The notes under the pieces were generated by a model. It searched no databases. It saw nothing but the letters and a program-made list of their open reading frames with translations, and was not told the DNA's origin. A stretch of 6,841 nucleotides of DNA from Gemmatimonadota bacterium. Its GTDB lineage: Bacteria; Gemmatimonadota; Gemmatimonadetes; Longimicrobiales; UBA6960. Location of the stretch: assembly GCA_022564535.1 (NCBI GenBank), contig JADFLD010000110.1:1-6841 (forward strand), given 5' to 3'. The position numbers were made by a program, and so were the translations under genes. Positions 219 to 6,326 of the stretch are shown here, piece after piece. Each line of letters opens with the position of its first letter. The stretch's first letter is position 1.

Positions 219-230
219 AGGATCACCGTG
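219..230 (+). promoter_or_regulatory. Ribosome binding site and GTG start chosen for the first gene
   Basis: AGGA at 219-222 lies five bases before GTG at 228-230. Translation from there begins VALLAILHPD, which fits the first beta strand of a receiver fold. The upstream in-frame GTG at 165 would add 21 residues and has no Shine-Dalgarno sequence at a suitable distance. I therefore prefer 228, with 165 as the alternative. Confidence 0.55.
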
Positions 231-2495
231 GCGTTATTGGCCATTCTCCATCCCGATGTACGGGCTGCCGCTCGCCTTTCCGACGCGCTCGGAGACGTGC
301 ACGACATCCTCCTCCATCGATCCTGGGAATCTCTCGAAAAAACGCTGGGCGCGGAGGCCATCGACGCGTGCCTGATCGACGCCGATCACCCGGATCGTGA
401 CGGAGCGGCACGGCGCCTCATGCAGCTCCGCAAGCAATTCCCGGGGCTCGCTCTCGTGGCTTGCGTCGACCACGAGCAGGCCGCCCACTACTTCGGCCTG
501 GGCAGCCTCGGGGTCGACGGCTTCCTCGTGTCGGGATCACAGACGGTCAAGCTCAGGGCGGACATCGACATCGCGCTGTCTACGGCACGTGGTCAGCAGA
601 TCGGTCGCCACCTCACGACAAGAATGCCTGACCCGGGACCCGCCGCCTTGGCGTGGGCCGTGGAGCACGCGGGTCCCGATGCCTCTGTCGAGCGACTCTC
701 CGCGGCGTTGGGCCACTCGCCACGCAGTCTCGGCGACGCCCTCCGTGCGGTCGGACTCCCGTCCCCGTCCCGGGTCCTCCTTTGGGGCCGCCTTCTCCTC
801 GCCGGGGCCCGCCTCGGAACGGACCGTCGGACGGTCGAGGACGTGGCCCTCTCGCTCGGGTACTCAGCTTCGACATCTCTCGCCCGCGCAATGAAACGGC
901 ACACGGGACTCACTCCCGCCGAGGTCTCTCGCCAGGGTGGAATGAACGCCGTTCGGGAGGCGTTCCTGTCGACGAACCCGCGTGACGGCGACGGCCCGCG
1001 CCACCCCCGCCATCGGGCGACGCAGGTCGCGACGTTGGTCTGGAGCCTCGCACTGGGTGGGTGCGCCACGCTCGGGTTCGGGGGGGCCGTCGTCGATCGC
1101 CACTCGATCGAACAGGTGCTCGCGTCACCCCCCATCGACCAGATTCACGTCGGAATATTCGCCATCGACGCACGCACAGGACGCACCCTGTACGCCCACA
1201 ACGCGAAGCGGAAGTTCGTTCCCGCCTCCAATCAGAAGCTTCTGGTCACGGCGACCGCGCTCTCTCTCCTCGGCCCCGGTTACCGGTTCCGAACCGAGGT
1301 CTGGGCCACCGGCTCAGCCGACGGATCGTACCTCGAGGGCGACCTGGTCGTCGTCGCCTCGGGGGACCCATCCATGTCGAGCCGATACTGGGAGTCGGGC
1401 ACCGCCGCGCTCGACGCGATCGCCGACAGTCTATTGCAGGCAGGTGTCGAGTACGTAGCCGGCTCGACGTTCATCGACGTGTCGGCGTGGGACTCCACGA
1501 CCGTAGGCCCGACCTGGGAAGTGGAGGACCTGCGCTATGCGTACGGCTCCACTGGGGGCGCGTTCGCCATCGACGAGGGTGAGGTCGAAGTCATCGTTAC
1601 CGCCGGCCCCGCCGTCGGGTCCCCCGCGACGATCGGATGGTCTCCCCTCGGCACCGAGGATTTCGTTCGGTCCCGGATTCGCACTTCGCCTCCCGACAGC
1701 TCGACCCGCGTCGTGCCCGGCTATCTGCCGGAATCACGGCAACTCGTCCTCGAGGGCACGATCGAGTGGGGCACGGTCGACACGATGACCTTCGCGATGC
1801 GTGACCCCGTCCGACAGGCGGCCGCCGCGCTCTCCAGCTCGATCGAGCGTGCCGGCATCGAGATGGAGGGTGGCTGGGAAATCAAATGGACCAAGGGGGA
1901 GCGCGTCGGCCGAGGATGCCTGTCCGGTGCCGTCCACGAGTGCGCCAGCTCCGCGCTGCTCACGGTCTTCGAATCACCCCCGCTCTCCGAGTTGATCGCT
2001 GGAATCCTGAAGCCGAGCCAGAACTGGATGACCGAGCAGCTCGTCCGCGCGCTGGGCGCCCGATACGGAGCCGAGGGTAGTTGGTCGGAGGGGGTCGGCG
2101 TCGTCGAGGCGTACCTGGTCAACGAGGTCGGCGTCGACTCGCTCGACATCTCGCTGCGGGACGGCTCCGGCCTGTCGGCCTACAACCTGGTCACCCCACG
2201 GGCGCTCGTCCGGATTTTGCAGGAGATGCACTCCGGACCTTACGCCGCCGAGTATCGCTCGGCACTCGCGGAGCCCGGTGAAGAAGGCTCGACATTGGAG
2301 GGGAGGCTCCTTGAATTGGAAGGACGGCTCTTCGCGAAGACAGGGACGATTTCGAACGTGAACTCGCTGTCGGGTTACCTCGTAAGGGACGATGGCCAGG
2401 AAGTGATCTTTTCGATTCTGACGAACGGATCGGGCCTGCCCTCCTCCCGCGTCCGAGAAGCGATCCATAAGATCGTTCGGGCTCTGGCGCGATGA
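228..2495 (+). CDS. Receiver-like/AraC-HTH regulator fused to a PBP4-type (S13) D-Ala-D-Ala carboxypeptidase
   Basis: A 755-residue protein from GTG 228 (776 from GTG 165). Residues about 1-118 resemble a response-regulator receiver: the phospho-Asp aligns with D51 in LIDADHPDRDG, but the acidic pair of strand 1 is missing and the conserved Lys is a Ser (S102). Residues about 134-237 form a double helix-turn-helix of the AraC type, ending LGYSASTSLARAMKRHTGLT. A basic stretch, a short hydrophobic segment and a lipobox-like LGGC (C279) follow. Residues about 293-755 are a full-length S13 domain with SxxK (S334-N-Q-K337), SxN (S597-Q-N599), DGSG (645-648) and KTG (K704-T-G706). The spacing matches E. 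coli PBP4, including the long insertion between the first two motifs. The family trims peptidoglycan stem peptides in the periplasm, and the catalytic set looks intact. C564 and C572 could form a disulfide. ATG 942 could be an internal start. The carboxypeptidase call is firm; whether the fusion is real or two genes share one frame is not settled. Confidence 0.88.
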   Translation: MALLAILHPDVRAAARLSDALGDVHDILLHRSWESLEKTLGAEAIDACLIDADHPDRDGAARRLMQLRKQFPGLALVACVDHEQAAHYFGLGSLGVDGFLVSGSQTVKLRADIDIALSTARGQQIGRHLTTRMPDPGPAALAWAVEHAGPDASVERLSAALGHSPRSLGDALRAVGLPSPSRVLLWGRLLLAGARLGTDRRTVEDVALSLGYSASTSLARAMKRHTGLTPAEVSRQGGMNAVREAFLSTNPRDGDGPRHPRHRATQVATLVWSLALGGCATLGFGGAVVDRHSIEQVLASPPIDQIHVGIFAIDARTGRTLYAHNAKRKFVPASNQKLLVTATALSLLGPGYRFRTEVWATGSADGSYLEGDLVVVASGDPSMSSRYWESGTAALDAIADSLLQAGVEYVAGSTFIDVSAWDSTTVGPTWEVEDLRYAYGSTGGAFAIDEGEVEVIVTAGPAVGSPATIGWSPLGTEDFVRSRIRTSPPDSSTRVVPGYLPESRQLVLEGTIEWGTVDTMTFAMRDPVRQAAAALSSSIERAGIEMEGGWEIKWTKGERVGRGCLSGAVHECASSALLTVFESPPLSELIAGILKPSQNWMTEQLVRALGARYGAEGSWSEGVGVVEAYLVNEVGVDSLDISLRDGSGLSAYNLVTPRALVRILQEMHSGPYAAEYRSALAEPGEEGSTLEGRLLELEGRLFAKTGTISNVNSLSGYLVRDDGQEVIFSILTNGSGLPSSRVREAIHKIVRALAR
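942..1064 (+). other. Possible internal start with lipoprotein signal for the carboxypeptidase part
   Basis: ATG 942 is in frame, directly after the HTH domain. From it the product begins with a long n-region ending in a basic stretch (RHPRHR), then a hydrophobic run (VATLVWSLALGG) and a Cys encoded at 1062-1064. This is a plausible signal-peptidase-II lipobox. Starting here would give a 517-residue lipoprotein close to normal PBP4 length. GGGTGG at 935-940 is only one base from the ATG, too close for a good Shine-Dalgarno, so independent initiation is uncertain. Confidence 0.4.
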
Positions 2496-2533: not shown

Positions 2534-5316
2534 CCGACTACAAGCTGCCCGACCTTCCTTCGGACGACGACCTCGGCATCACCGACGGCGACCGGGAGGA
2601 GTACGAGAAGAACTTCCCCGACGACGGCCCGGAAATGACGGATACCGAGATGGCAGCTCTGCTCGGGGACTCGCCCCCTCAGAAAAAAGAGCCCGCCAAG
2701 CCGACGCGGCGAGACAAACGGAAGGCGGCCAAGGAGGTGCGGCGGGAAGAGAAACGGCGGGCGAAAGAAGCGAAGAGCCGAGCCAAGGAAACGGATCGCG
2801 CACCGGAGAAGGAAACGGACCGCGCACCAGAAACGGCTGCCCCCTCCGTAGCGGCGGCATCGCGGAGCCGTTGGAGAGGCCCGGTCACTTTGGCAATCCT
2901 CATCGCGATTGCGGTCTTCAGCAGTTCCCGGACTGGTCTCCCCCGTCCGGTGCCCGCGAACGCTCCCGACACCGCGTTCTCTTCGGCCCGCGCGATGGCC
3001 ACACTCGTCGAGGTCGCGCGCGCGGCCCACCCACCAGGCTCGCCGGAACACGAGAGAGTTCGGGAGTTGCTCGTCGACCGGTTACGGGCTCTCGGTCTCG
3101 AGCCCGAAGTCCAGACGACGACGAGCATGCTCCAGAGCCCCGGAGTGGTGAGGGCCGCGACGGTCCGAAACATCGTCGCGCGCATACCCGGAACCGCTTC
3201 GACGGGCGCCGTTCTGATCACCGCGCACTACGACAGCCGGGGGATCGCGGTCGGAGCGGCCGACGACGGCTTCGGCGTCGTGTCGATCATCGAGGCGGTA
3301 CGAGCGCTTCAGGCCAGTTCTCCGCTACGCAACGATGTGATCGTGCTGTTGACGGACGCCGAGGAGCTGGGGCTGCTGGGCGCGCGCGCGTTCGTGGACC
3401 AGCACCCGTGGCTGGCCGACGTCTCGCTCGTTCTGTCCGTCGAGATGAGAGGCGGGGGTGGTCCCTCGATCATGTTCGAGACCAACGAGCAGAACGGCTG
3501 GGTCGTCCGCGCGCTGGCGGCGTTCGACTCCCACCCGGTGGCGAATTCGATTTCGTACGAGATCTACAAGCGAATGTCCAGAGACACCGACTTCACTCCA
3601 TTCAAGGAGGCCGGTGTTCAGGGGTTGAACTTCGCCGCCATCGACCGGGCAAACGTCTATCATCAGGTCTATGACAGGCCGGAGAACCTCTCCGAGTCGA
3701 CGCTCCAGCACCACGGCATCCACGCGCTGGACGCCCTGAAGTACTTCGGGCACGCCGACCTCAGTGTGGTGGACGCACCGAACCAGGTGTACTTGTCGCT
3801 ACCGCTTCTCGGACTCGTCGTCTACGACCAGGCGTTGGCAATCCCTCTTTCGGGCGTGCTCGTCGTGCTCTTCGGCGTCACTGTGCTCCTTGGCATGCGG
3901 GCAGGCGCCCGTCCAGGCAGGCTCGCGGCGAGCTTGGGCGTGGCGGTCCTGGCCGGCGCCCTCGCGTTCGGCTCGGGGTTCGGGCTTCTCACCTGGCTTC
4001 CACGTTTCCACCCGGAGATGGGGAGTCTGCCCGGATCGGCCTTTCACAGCGAAGGGTGGTACATGCTAGCGCTGGCGTGCGCCGCCTTCGTCATCGTGAC
4101 CGCTCTGACGACAGTGACGCAGCGGTGGCTCTCGTCCATCGAGCTCGCCCTGGGCGCCGTGCTCATTCCCCTCATCGGCGCCGTGGCGATGAGCTTCGCG
4201 ACGCCGCTCGCTGCGATGAATTTGCAGTGGCCGGTCATGGCAGCGTTGCTGTCCGTGCTGGTCCTTGTGCTCCTCGGAACCCGACGCGAAGGAATGGTCG
4301 GCTGGATCGCGGCGCTCGTGCTCGCCGCGCCGGTCCTCGTGATGATGGTCTGGCTCACCGAACTGATTTGGTTGGCGATGAGCCTGCGGATCGCGGGGAT
4401 CCTCTCGGTCATGATGGTCGTGACACTCCTTTTGTGCGTGCCGGCCTTGAGCGCCCTGAAGCATCCGAACTCATGGTGGGCCCCCCTGACGGGCCTGGTG
4501 CTCGGCGGTTTGGCCCTCGCCATCGGCCTGCTCATGTCCAGGCCGAGCCCGGATCGCCCCGCCCCGAGCACACTCGTCTACGCATACGAACACGGCTCGG
4601 GGGCAGCCATCTGGGCGACGAGTCCGTCCGAGGCCGATCCCGAATCCGAAGCCCGCGCCTGGGCGGTCCAGCGGGCGGGTGGCCCTTTCGCGGAGACCAG
4701 GGACCTGAGCGCGTTCGGCTATCGCGGGGGAGTCGTTCCGGTTACGTCAGCGCCCGTCGTATCTGCGCCGCCTCCCCGGGTCATTTTGGCGTCGGACTCC
4801 ATCGACGAGAACGGACGGTACGTCGTTCTGCATGTACGCTCGCGAATCGGTGCCGAGATGCTTCGCTTCGAGTACGACGCGCAAGGGAGTACGCGTCTCG
4901 TGTCGCTGAACGGGATCGCGATCGACGATCCCGAAGGCCTGCAGTGGGCAGAGCACTGGGGGGAGCCGGACGGTGATGTCGTGTTGGAGCTGACGATGCC
5001 TGCCGACGAGTCGATCGGGCTGCACATCATCGAGCATCTGCTCCGCCCCGAAGAACTGCTCGGGGAAGACGCCTTCACGCGCCCGGACGACCTCGCCGCG
5101 GATATCAGCTGGTTGAGCGACCGGGCCATGTTCCGCTACTCGGTCGCGGCGTTCGTCGACCCGCGCCACGCGATCATGCTTCCCTCGGCTGCGCCGACCG
5201 ACCCGGTCCCGGAGGCCACCGAAGAGAGCACCGACTCCACACGCGTCGACCTTCCCGATACGTCGGTGACCGCAACGGATACGCTACGTCCGGTGCCGGA
5301 CACGATCCCTCGGTGA
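2530..5316 (+). CDS. Membrane-bound M28 zinc metallopeptidase with multi-spanning C-terminal domain (ERMP1/PFF1-like layout)
   Basis: 928 residues. Residues 1-115 are a charged, presumably cytoplasmic tail: acidic to about 50, then Lys/Arg/Glu-rich with a perfect tandem KETDRAPE (86-93, 94-101). A signal-anchor helix lies at about 117-132. The M28 peptidase domain (about 150-410) has the co-catalytic di-zinc set: H233 (AHYD), D245 (AADDGFG), catalytic E278 and ligand E279 (DAEELG), E305 (SVEMRGGGG) and H378 (VYHQ). Glu rather than Asp at the fourth position and the following Gly run resemble the ERMP1/PFF1 branch. About eight membrane helices follow (436-670), then a soluble probably beta-rich domain (about 680-880) and a Pro/Thr/Ser/Asp-rich tail. 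The peptidase should face the periplasm and remove N-terminal residues from peptides; the substrate is unknown. ATG 2530 lacks a Shine-Dalgarno and is probably translationally coupled. The M28 call is firm, the eukaryotic comparison is by architecture only. Confidence 0.9.
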   Translation: MTDYKLPDLPSDDDLGITDGDREEYEKNFPDDGPEMTDTEMAALLGDSPPQKKEPAKPTRRDKRKAAKEVRREEKRRAKEAKSRAKETDRAPEKETDRAPETAAPSVAAASRSRWRGPVTLAILIAIAVFSSSRTGLPRPVPANAPDTAFSSARAMATLVEVARAAHPPGSPEHERVRELLVDRLRALGLEPEVQTTTSMLQSPGVVRAATVRNIVARIPGTASTGAVLITAHYDSRGIAVGAADDGFGVVSIIEAVRALQASSPLRNDVIVLLTDAEELGLLGARAFVDQHPWLADVSLVLSVEMRGGGGPSIMFETNEQNGWVVRALAAFDSHPVANSISYEIYKRMSRDTDFTPFKEAGVQGLNFAAIDRANVYHQVYDRPENLSESTLQHHGIHALDALKYFGHADLSVVDAPNQVYLSLPLLGLVVYDQALAIPLSGVLVVLFGVTVLLGMRAGARPGRLAASLGVAVLAGALAFGSGFGLLTWLPRFHPEMGSLPGSAFHSEGWYMLALACAAFVIVTALTTVTQRWLSSIELALGAVLIPLIGAVAMSFATPLAAMNLQWPVMAALLSVLVLVLLGTRREGMVGWIAALVLAAPVLVMMVWLTELIWLAMSLRIAGILSVMMVVTLLLCVPALSALKHPNSWWAPLTGLVLGGLALAIGLLMSRPSPDRPAPSTLVYAYEHGSGAAIWATSPSEADPESEARAWAVQRAGGPFAETRDLSAFGYRGGVVPVTSAPVVSAPPPRVILASDSIDENGRYVVLHVRSRIGAEMLRFEYDAQGSTRLVSLNGIAIDDPEGLQWAEHWGEPDGDVVLELTMPADESIGLHIIEHLLRPEELLGEDAFTRPDDLAADISWLSDRAMFRYSVAAFVDPRHAIMLPSAAPTDPVPEATEESTDSTRVDLPDTSVTATDTLRPVPDTIPR
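2785..2832 (+). repeat. Two tandem 24-base units encoding KETDRAPE twice
   Basis: Units at 2785-2808 and 2809-2832 encode the identical eight residues. They differ at only three bases, all synonymous third positions (GAT/GAC, CCG/CCA, GAG/GAA). This fits an in-frame duplication that has aged while the peptide was kept, in the cytoplasmic tail of the M28 peptidase. Confidence 0.8.
5313..5316 (+). promoter_or_regulatory. GTGA stop-start overlap coupling genes 2 and 3
   Basis: The TGA stop of the M28 gene (5314-5316) overlaps the GTG start of the PHP gene (5313-5315). No Shine-Dalgarno precedes this GTG, and the reading frame from it opens straight into a lipoprotein signal peptide, which supports both the start and translational coupling. 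Confidence 0.7.
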
Positions 5317-6326
5317 ATCGTCTCTCGCCGGGCCGCTACGCCCCTGCGCTTCTCGCGGCGACGCTCTTCGGTTGTACCGACGCGCCCACCGCGCGCTTCG
5401 AGGTTCCGCAGTGGACCGGTACCTGGTACAAGGGAAACACGCACGCGCACACGACGGAGAGCGACGGTGACTCGTCACCCGAGTACGTCGCTCAATGGTA
5501 CAAGGACCATGGCTACGACTTCCTGGTCCTGTCCGACCACAACGTTCTCACCGATCCGTCGACGCTCGACCACCTGACGGACTCGACCTTCCTGCTGATC
5601 CCCGGCGAAGAGCTCACGTCGAGCTTCGGAGACACCCCGGTCCACGTGAACGGCCTGAACCTTCCACACGTGGTCGAGGCCCGGACCGCCGAGTCACTCG
5701 TGGCCACCCTTCAGGCCAACGTCGATGCCATCCGCCAAGTCGACGGCGTACCGCACATCAACCACCCAAATTTTCGGTGGTCGTTCGGCGTGGAGGAGCT
5801 TCGCCAGCTCGAGGGAGACAGGCTGCTGGAGATCTGGAACGGCCATCCGACCGTCCACAACGAGGGAGGCGGCGGCGCTCCCGGACTCGAAGCGATCTGG
5901 GACCTGCTCCTCACCGGGGGAAAGACCATATACGGCATCGCGGTGGACGATGCGCATCACTTCCAGGGCGAGTTTTCCGTGGATCGGGCGAACCCCGGCC
6001 GAGGGTGGGTCTCCATTCGAGCCCCTGCCCTCGAGCCAGCCGCGCTGATGACCGCACTCGAAGCCGGACACTTCTACGCCAGTACCGGCGTGGAGCTCGA
6101 TGACCTGGTGGTAACGCCGACGCGACTCGAGGTTCATATCCGCGTCGACCGCGACTTCAAGTACGAAACCACCTTCATCGGCTCGGCCGGACGCGTTCTC
6201 GCTACGACGGTCGAGAACCCGGCCGTCTTCGACCTCACGCGCGACGTGGGTTACGTCCGCGCCAGAGTCCGTGACTCTCGGGGTGGCGTCGCGTGGACGC
6301 AGCCCTTGTTCGTCACGAGGAGGTGA
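5313..6326 (+). CDS. Lipoprotein PHP-domain metallohydrolase (CehA/McbA-like)
   Basis: 337 residues from GTG 5313. The N-terminus has a basic start, a hydrophobic run and a lipobox (LFGC, C21), so the mature enzyme should be an acylated lipoprotein outside the cytoplasmic membrane. The PHP domain covers about 36-260. Its metal-binding motifs are H44-A-H46, D51, D75-H76 (VLSDHN), E99/E100 (PGEEL), H111, H148/H151 (PHINHP) and D213 with H215/H216 (VDDAHH), which looks like a complete set. Residues about 265-337 form a small beta-rich C-terminal region. The wording WYKGNTHAHT and HGYDFLVLSDHN is typical of proteins named CehA/McbA family metallohydrolase. PHP enzymes hydrolyse phosphoesters, and some relatives hydrolyse carbamates; the substrate here cannot be told. 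It overlaps the M28 gene by four bases, so the two products are probably made together. Confidence 0.88.
   Translation: MNRLSPGRYAPALLAATLFGCTDAPTARFEVPQWTGTWYKGNTHAHTTESDGDSSPEYVAQWYKDHGYDFLVLSDHNVLTDPSTLDHLTDSTFLLIPGEELTSSFGDTPVHVNGLNLPHVVEARTAESLVATLQANVDAIRQVDGVPHINHPNFRWSFGVEELRQLEGDRLLEIWNGHPTVHNEGGGGAPGLEAIWDLLLTGGKTIYGIAVDDAHHFQGEFSVDRANPGRGWVSIRAPALEPAALMTALEAGHFYASTGVELDDLVVTPTRLEVHIRVDRDFKYETTFIGSAGRVLATTVENPAVFDLTRDVGYVRARVRDSRGGVAWTQPLFVTRR
6318..6326 (+). promoter_or_regulatory. Perfect Shine-Dalgarno containing the stop codon of the preceding gene
   Basis: AGGAGGTGA is fully complementary to the usual anti-Shine-Dalgarno tail of 16S rRNA. Its last three bases are the TGA stop of the PHP gene. 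It lies eight bases (counted from AGGAGG) before ATG 6332. It is the strongest ribosome binding site in the window and fixes the start of the last gene. It suggests that gene is translated independently and well. Confidence 0.85.

Follow-up and report, generated by a model that had tools for sequence, protein, structure and literature searches.

Introduction

BlaR1 and MecR1 couple a penicillin-binding outer domain to gene control. In ToxR and CadC, a cytoplasmic DNA-binding part is joined through one membrane helix to a periplasmic part, and the DNA-binding domain of the ToxR family is a winged helix, according to the sections of PMC5936718 available to us. The accessible sections of PMC10202637 describe enterococcal pheromones arising from lipoprotein precursors that are cut by type II signal peptidase and then by RseP (Eep), and suggest signal peptidases as site-1 proteases for RsiV. 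Those of PMC12067869 report the degradation of detached signal peptides by RseP. No regulator ahead of a lipobox was met in the available sections of these three papers.

Here we describe a gene, found in a 6,841-nucleotide stretch of Gemmatimonadota DNA (the window, i.e. the whole stretch that was analysed), which joins an AraC-type regulator to a PBP4-type enzyme. Its product shares the ToxR/CadC layout of cytoplasmic DNA-binding part, one membrane helix and periplasmic part, but has an AraC-type helix-turn-helix (HTH), a lipobox and an enzymatic outer domain, and no winged-helix family of Pfam matched it. Compared with BlaR1/MecR1 as these are generally known, it has one helix, and the place of their class-D-like sensor domain is taken by an S13 domain; a Pfam scan found no membrane metalloprotease domain in it, all matches being of HTH or S13/beta-lactamase type. 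With AraC/XylS-type regulators (HTH_18) it shares an HTH with a conserved core, whereas it differs from them in the receiver fold of its N-terminal domain and in the exported enzyme that comes after the HTH. With PBP4/DacB (family S13) it has the complete catalytic domain and every motif in common. Those matches are to the enzyme domain alone; in the window protein this domain belongs to a predicted lipoprotein and is preceded by a cytoplasmic regulator. In the enterococcal pheromones and RsiV, a precursor is turned into a signal by signal peptidase plus a site-2 protease (PMC10202637, available sections), whereas the N-terminal leftover of the window protein would be a whole transcription regulator.

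A regulator and a complete PBP4 in one frame

Positions 228-2495 of the window form an uninterrupted frame. It encodes an atypical receiver and an AraC-type HTH, followed by a hydrophobic helix and then by a complete S13/PBP4 domain. The gene and the features of its two halves are the following.

228 to 2495, + strand: whole fused gene, GTG start, stop ending at 2495, 755 aa
228 to 602, + strand: atypical receiver domain, residues 1-125, with Asp51 at the expected phospho-acceptor place (AlphaFold/Foldseek)
696 to 932, + strand: AraC-type helix-turn-helix, residues 157-235 (PF12833, HTH_18, E 3.8e-12)
942 to 968, + strand: conserved post-HTH helix, residues 239-247, opening with Met239, a possible non-conserved internal start
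1101 to 2483, + strand: S13/PBP4 D-Ala-D-Ala carboxypeptidase/endopeptidase domain, residues 292-752 (Pfam, NCBIfam, structure matches)
1227 to 1238, + strand: SxxK, S334-K337 (alignment)
2016 to 2024, + strand: SxN, S597-N599 (alignment)
2160 to 2171, + strand: DGSG, 645-648 (alignment)
2337 to 2345, + strand: KTG, 704-706 (alignment)

The HTH was recognized by the Pfam profile HTH_18 over residues 157-235 (46.8 bits, cut-off 33.6), and HTH_AraC (PF00165) remained under its cut-off (22.1, cut-off 26.6). Residues 1-250 were modelled by AlphaFold on a 29-sequence alignment with a mean pLDDT of 92.5, and a Foldseek search with this model returned receiver domains and FixJ-type response regulators (3crn, TMt 0.82; 3jte, 0.79), so that AlphaFold plus Foldseek assign a receiver fold to the N-terminal domain; Pfam gave no receiver match at 1e-3 in the window protein. 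Searching some 5.8 billion proteins gave 312 matches; the best 120 of them, a list that favours full-length matches, make up, together with the window protein, the 121 aligned sequences referred to throughout. Asp51 is present in 115 of these 121 and is invariant in the 29-row alignment A2. The acidic pair and the lysine of the receiver active site were not seen, by eye, at their expected places. Beyond the HTH, Leu246 is nearly invariant, stand-alone regulators included. The dN/dS ratios of six pairs were 0.13-0.29 for the regulator half and 0.11-0.21 for the PBP4 half, values that are rough since dS exceeds 1 in four of the six pairs. Judged by these ratios, the regulator half is under purifying selection. 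Its AraC-type part is predicted to bind DNA and control transcription.

The second half was matched by Peptidase_S13 (Pfam, residues 292-752, E 4e-85) and by the NCBIfam PBP4 model TIGR00666 (240.1 bits, cut-off 107.8), and it resembles solved S13 enzymes (PDB 2ex2, 1w79, 1w5d). S334, K337, S597, N599, K704, T705 and G706 occur in all 121 aligned sequences (window plus the best 120 of 312), and each of the four DGSG residues in 118-121 of them. In an AlphaFold model of the full-length protein both halves were mostly confident, with values below 50 at residues 249-270, 275-286, 422-443 and 645-652, and the pTM of 0.57 gave no fixed mutual placing of the two halves. An earlier note on this DNA had claimed a single frame joining an AraC-type regulator to a catalytically complete S13 enzyme, in an arrangement without a named family. 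The 755-residue frame, the profile matches to both domains and the conserved SxxK, SxN, DGSG and KTG residues bear out the first part; for the second, neither Pfam, NCBIfam nor the open-access literature searched holds a name for it. Searches of that literature found no report of the fusion or of a lipoprotein signal peptidase freeing a transcription factor, and an Rfam scan of the window at gathering scores gave no match.

Distribution and history of the fusion

Full-length relatives, 53-71% identical, were found in Gemmatimonadota, in named genome records as well as in many metagenome contigs. Both HTH_18 and S13 are annotated in 119 of the best 120 of 312 matches (precomputed Pfam), P0075 lacking the HTH label only; the nearest relative in this set, P0002 (99%), represents 13 member sequences with a contig count of 1. 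The conservation across independent genomes that the earlier note wanted checked is thus found in named genome records. An assembly artefact or frameshift is ruled out by the full-length relatives in genome records and metagenome contigs. At the DNA level, the start column reads ATG, GTG or TTG in all 12 loci examined. The receiver-AraC-PBP4 fusion is therefore real, conserved, and unnamed within the databases and literature searched.

A scan of genome contigs, seeded with two PBP4 peptides only and less biased than the protein search, retained 80 loci of 89. The gene is fused in ten of the 80 (L001-L008, L022 and L023), L007 being a shortened fusion in which residues 97-164 of the regulator are missing, and the regulator is a separate upstream frame in four (L021, L025, L039, L040). 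In L013 only the receiver remains, without an HTH, ahead of an intact PBP4. No clear regulator stands beside PBP4 in 65 of the 80 loci, a count to be read with upstream DNA shorter than 1 kb in eight loci; L009 and L042 hold remnants by eye, and L079 a weak 13.7-bit match. In the family of genome G001, a close PBP4 (E at most 1e-150) was found in 29 of 121 genomes: ten have complete fusions, G231 a fused gene that carries an internal deletion, G291 and G087 remnants, G004 a split pair, and the other 15, in this search, the PBP4 half only.

A 57-domain tree of PBP4, with its root set by six non-Gemmatimonadota rows, has one 26-row clade (99/95) that contains every fused gene of the tree (the window, L001-L008, L022, L023 and L092); it consists of 12 fused, two remnant and 12 regulator-free loci. 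The consistent splitting of close homologs, which the earlier note had named as what would speak against it, was not seen: wherever an HTH-bearing regulator lies beside PBP4 in this clade, the two form one frame (12 of 12 loci, 11 complete and L007 shortened). Two consistently split genes are rejected for this clade; split pairs occur in relatives outside it, namely the five separate-gene loci, i.e. the four listed above and G074/L130.

Parsimony required 11 changes for the character 'regulator present or fused' and seven for 'fused or remnant', gains and losses not being distinguished. A shortened regulator whose frame still runs from its own start into PBP4 is seen in L013 and L007 and apparently, by eye, in L009 and L042. 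L097 has only the second half of the HTH ahead of an intact PBP4. G269 (L121/L146) shows the same syntenic arrangement without PBP4: the regulator is kept and ends directly ahead of the M28 gene, and no close PBP4 was found in this genome at E 1e-150. Given the remnant loci, the simplest reading of these sequences would be that an existing AraC-PBP4 gene pair was fused in frame once, and that the regulator was later lost several times and PBP4 in G269. Fused, split and half-lost versions in close relatives offer a natural series for what the fusion adds.

Another junction was seen in genome G169, where the frame of a truncated ECF sigma factor (Sigma70_r2) continues into that of the PBP4 lipobox (L099, 1105-2973); this arrangement apparently arose by deletion of intervening genes.

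A lipobox between the two halves

The segment that joins the halves has three parts.

969 to 1025, + strand: variable, mostly basic linker, residues 248-266 (alignment, full-length model)
1026 to 1061, + strand: hydrophobic segment, signal-peptide h-region, residues 267-278 (alignment, full-length model)
1062 to 1064, + strand: lipobox cysteine Cys279, predicted Lgt/LspA site (120 of 121 sequences)

Residues 264-280 resemble the end of a signal peptide, with basic residues, a hydrophobic helix and, mostly, [GA]-Cys-Ala; basic n-region, hydrophobic h-region and lipobox Cys, the sequence marks of a lipoprotein, are all present. Cys279 is found in 120 of the 121 aligned sequences (window plus the best 120 of 312) while the surrounding h-region varies. 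The sole exception, P0006, misses the whole segment, hydrophobic helix and cysteine alike. Gly or Ala precedes Cys279 in 116 of the 121 and Ala follows it in 119; the charge ahead of it is net positive in 100 of 120. A PROSITE-like lipobox pattern fits 96 of 120, the window protein being one that fits, and does not fit 24; a strict pattern, [LVI][ASTVI][GAS]C, fits 40 of 120 and fails in 80. The linker has 21 different lengths, from 25 to 62 residues, in the aligned set, which is biased towards full-length proteins. In all 12 regulator-free orthologs of the fusion clade, the signal peptide ends, by eye, at the same lipobox cysteine. Genes for the processing enzymes were found in most genomes searched: Lgt in 10 of 11, LspA in six of eight (not found in the other two) and RseP in eight of eight, in genomes of unstated completeness.

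From these sequences we consider it on balance probable that the gene encodes one precursor, in which the regulator extends a lipoprotein signal peptide far into the cytoplasm and LspA separates the halves. The N-terminal 250 residues would be a cytoplasmic AraC-type regulator with an atypical receiver, the basic linker and hydrophobic helix the lipoprotein signal peptide, and the remainder a PBP4-type D,D-peptidase. On export, Lgt would modify Cys279 and signal peptidase II (LspA) would then cut just before it. PBP4 would be anchored in the periplasm by its lipid, and the regulator would stay behind on the cytoplasmic side, attached to a membrane stub from which an RseP-type site-2 protease would perhaps release it later. 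The freed regulator would most likely control envelope genes, possibly its own cluster. We infer translation as a single chain, cleavage, release and DNA targets alike; should the single chain be made, a cut ahead of Cys279 is probable. A lipoprotein signal peptide behind 250 residues is unusual, and poor processing is possible.

The earlier note had suggested a one-component membrane regulator of the CadC/ToxR or BlaR kind. As an intact sensor of this kind, the uncut chain would relay to the HTH what PBP4 has bound, stem peptides or beta-lactam. The domain order with its single hydrophobic helix, the complete active site and the retention of the fusion across large divergence would all suit such a sensor. 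Some regulator-only proteins (P0127-P0129, P0132, P0135) also keep the basic and hydrophobic stretch without a PBP4 half; they could be anchored regulators, in which case the tether could matter, or frameshifted or eroded fusions. Against this stand the loss of either half independently of the other and the five separate regulators and the G269 regulator, which end without a hydrophobic segment, so that a membrane tether is no general need of the regulator. The lipobox, overlooked in that note, also speaks against it: with Cys279 in 120 of 121 sequences and in regulator-free orthologs as well, a lasting CadC/BlaR-like sensor is improbable. Of the proposed membrane regulator with a penicillin-binding domain, the frame, the fusion and its conservation stand, and the intact sensor is not supported. 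A permanent transmembrane sensor is, on these sequences, unlikely, and we would give the specific scheme of an uncut reporting chain only a small chance. Since the halves survive apart and separate regulators have no membrane segment, a precursor that is cut suits the sequences better than a single chain that signals.

Cleavage at the lipobox would mean that a single gene supplies the cytoplasm with a regulator and the periplasm with a lipoprotein in a one-to-one ratio, as a bacterial polyprotein divided by signal peptidase II. Each PBP4 matured via Lgt and LspA might then leave one membrane-bound AraC regulator which, freed by RseP, would be a gene-control signal of its own export; we regard this extension as doubtful. 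A gated form of the cut precursor, in which the PBP4 half controls access of LspA or RseP so that the wall state sets the amount of freed regulator, would tie peptidoglycan editing directly to transcription. LspA action, however, is normally constitutive, and we hold gating to be quite unlikely, although the protease genes are encoded in most genomes searched and the RsiV anti-sigma factor (signal peptidase, RasP) and the enterococcal precursors offer precedents (PMC10202637, available sections).

A possible internal start for PBP4

Internal translation of PBP4 is a serious rival to the single chain. The gene would then have two products, the regulator from the long frame and the PBP4 lipoprotein from a start near residues 239-242, and would mostly be a merged operon. 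Met239 is present in 89 of the 121 aligned sequences (window plus the best 120 of 312), and a Met immediately ahead of the h-region in 16. The regulator-free proteins L011, L012 and L014 begin, by eye, at a Met resembling position 239. At the DNA level, GTG242 occurs in four of four loci without ATG239 and in one of seven with it (11 loci, Fisher p 0.015). This pattern, noticed post hoc among related loci and with Val codon preference unaccounted for (L092, the sister of L005, was omitted and fits too), is a hint of an internal start. Shine-Dalgarno-like pairing was scored with the linker of L007 and the ATG239 of L002 left out; it was strong at GTG242 of L003, L008 and L022 (-9.5 to -10.0, among the best of each gene) and above the median at ATG239 of L006 (-7.3), but only equal to the gene median at ATG239 of the window and weaker than the median at that of L004.

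No internal start codon is conserved, however, codon 239 being CTC, ACG or TTC in L001, L003, L005 and L008. Residues 239-247 are moreover a helix of the regulator, and the near-invariance of Leu246 in stand-alone regulators can explain their conservation. Finally, independent starts would not require a shared frame, yet all 12 loci keep the frame, and it persists over linkers of 21 different lengths, which speaks for a single chain. Taken together, these observations make two separately started products unlikely.

Upstream element and gene neighbourhood

170 to 202, + strand: promoter-like element TTGC-N18/19-RCAYYTTSGC (by eye), 25 nt ahead of the start codon
2530 to 5316, + strand: M28-family membrane peptidase gene (Pfam), recurrent downstream neighbour
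5313 to 6326, + strand: CehA/McbA-type metallohydrolase gene (NCBIfam), next recurrent neighbour

A regular-expression scan found the upstream element at the same place in 13 of 89 records (the window, L001-L007, L009, L017, L021, L022 and L146). It is missing at the regulator-bearing L008 and L023 and at the separate-gene loci L025, L039, L040 and L130, and absent from most regulator-free loci checked, L009 and L017 being the exceptions. In 14 genomes the pattern gave 33 matches, against ten for a reversed control. Six genomes carry it also ahead of another gene, of one kind in all six (L175, L192, L205-L208; the four checked are aldehyde dehydrogenases), and five of these genomes have no complete fusion (G087, G169, G269, G284, G419). 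It precedes other genes too, some of which look secreted by eye. As the element precedes unrelated genes, the idea of a private operator of the regulator, which its absence from most regulator-free loci had first suggested, was dropped in favour of a core promoter, and the TTGC...CATCTT-type element is possibly a core promoter form of Gemmatimonadota.

The neighbourhood recurs in 26 records in the order aminotransferase class V (23 records), ECF sigma factor (19), probable anti-sigma factor (19, named by eye without a Pfam match), YbjQ-like (20), the regulator-PBP4 gene, M28 peptidase (22) and CehA-type metallohydrolase (14, named from the window gene). In the window, where little upstream DNA is present, the YbjQ gene that relatives have upstream was not found.

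Four of five genomes (G001, G002, G004, G005; loci L149-L152) have a second S13 gene, with about 30% identity, in tail-to-tail arrangement with a stand-alone receiver-AraC regulator. In G003 (L153), where the fused regulator is a by-eye remnant, such a regulator was not found within 15 kb, and no S13 gene lies beside the other stand-alone regulators (L133-L145) in the adjoining DNA examined. Because the second S13 gene adjoins a stand-alone regulator, the arrangement supports a working link between this type of regulator and S13 enzymes.

At the start of the window, positions 2-117 hold an imperfect 23-nt inverted repeat with arms at 2-24 and 95-117.
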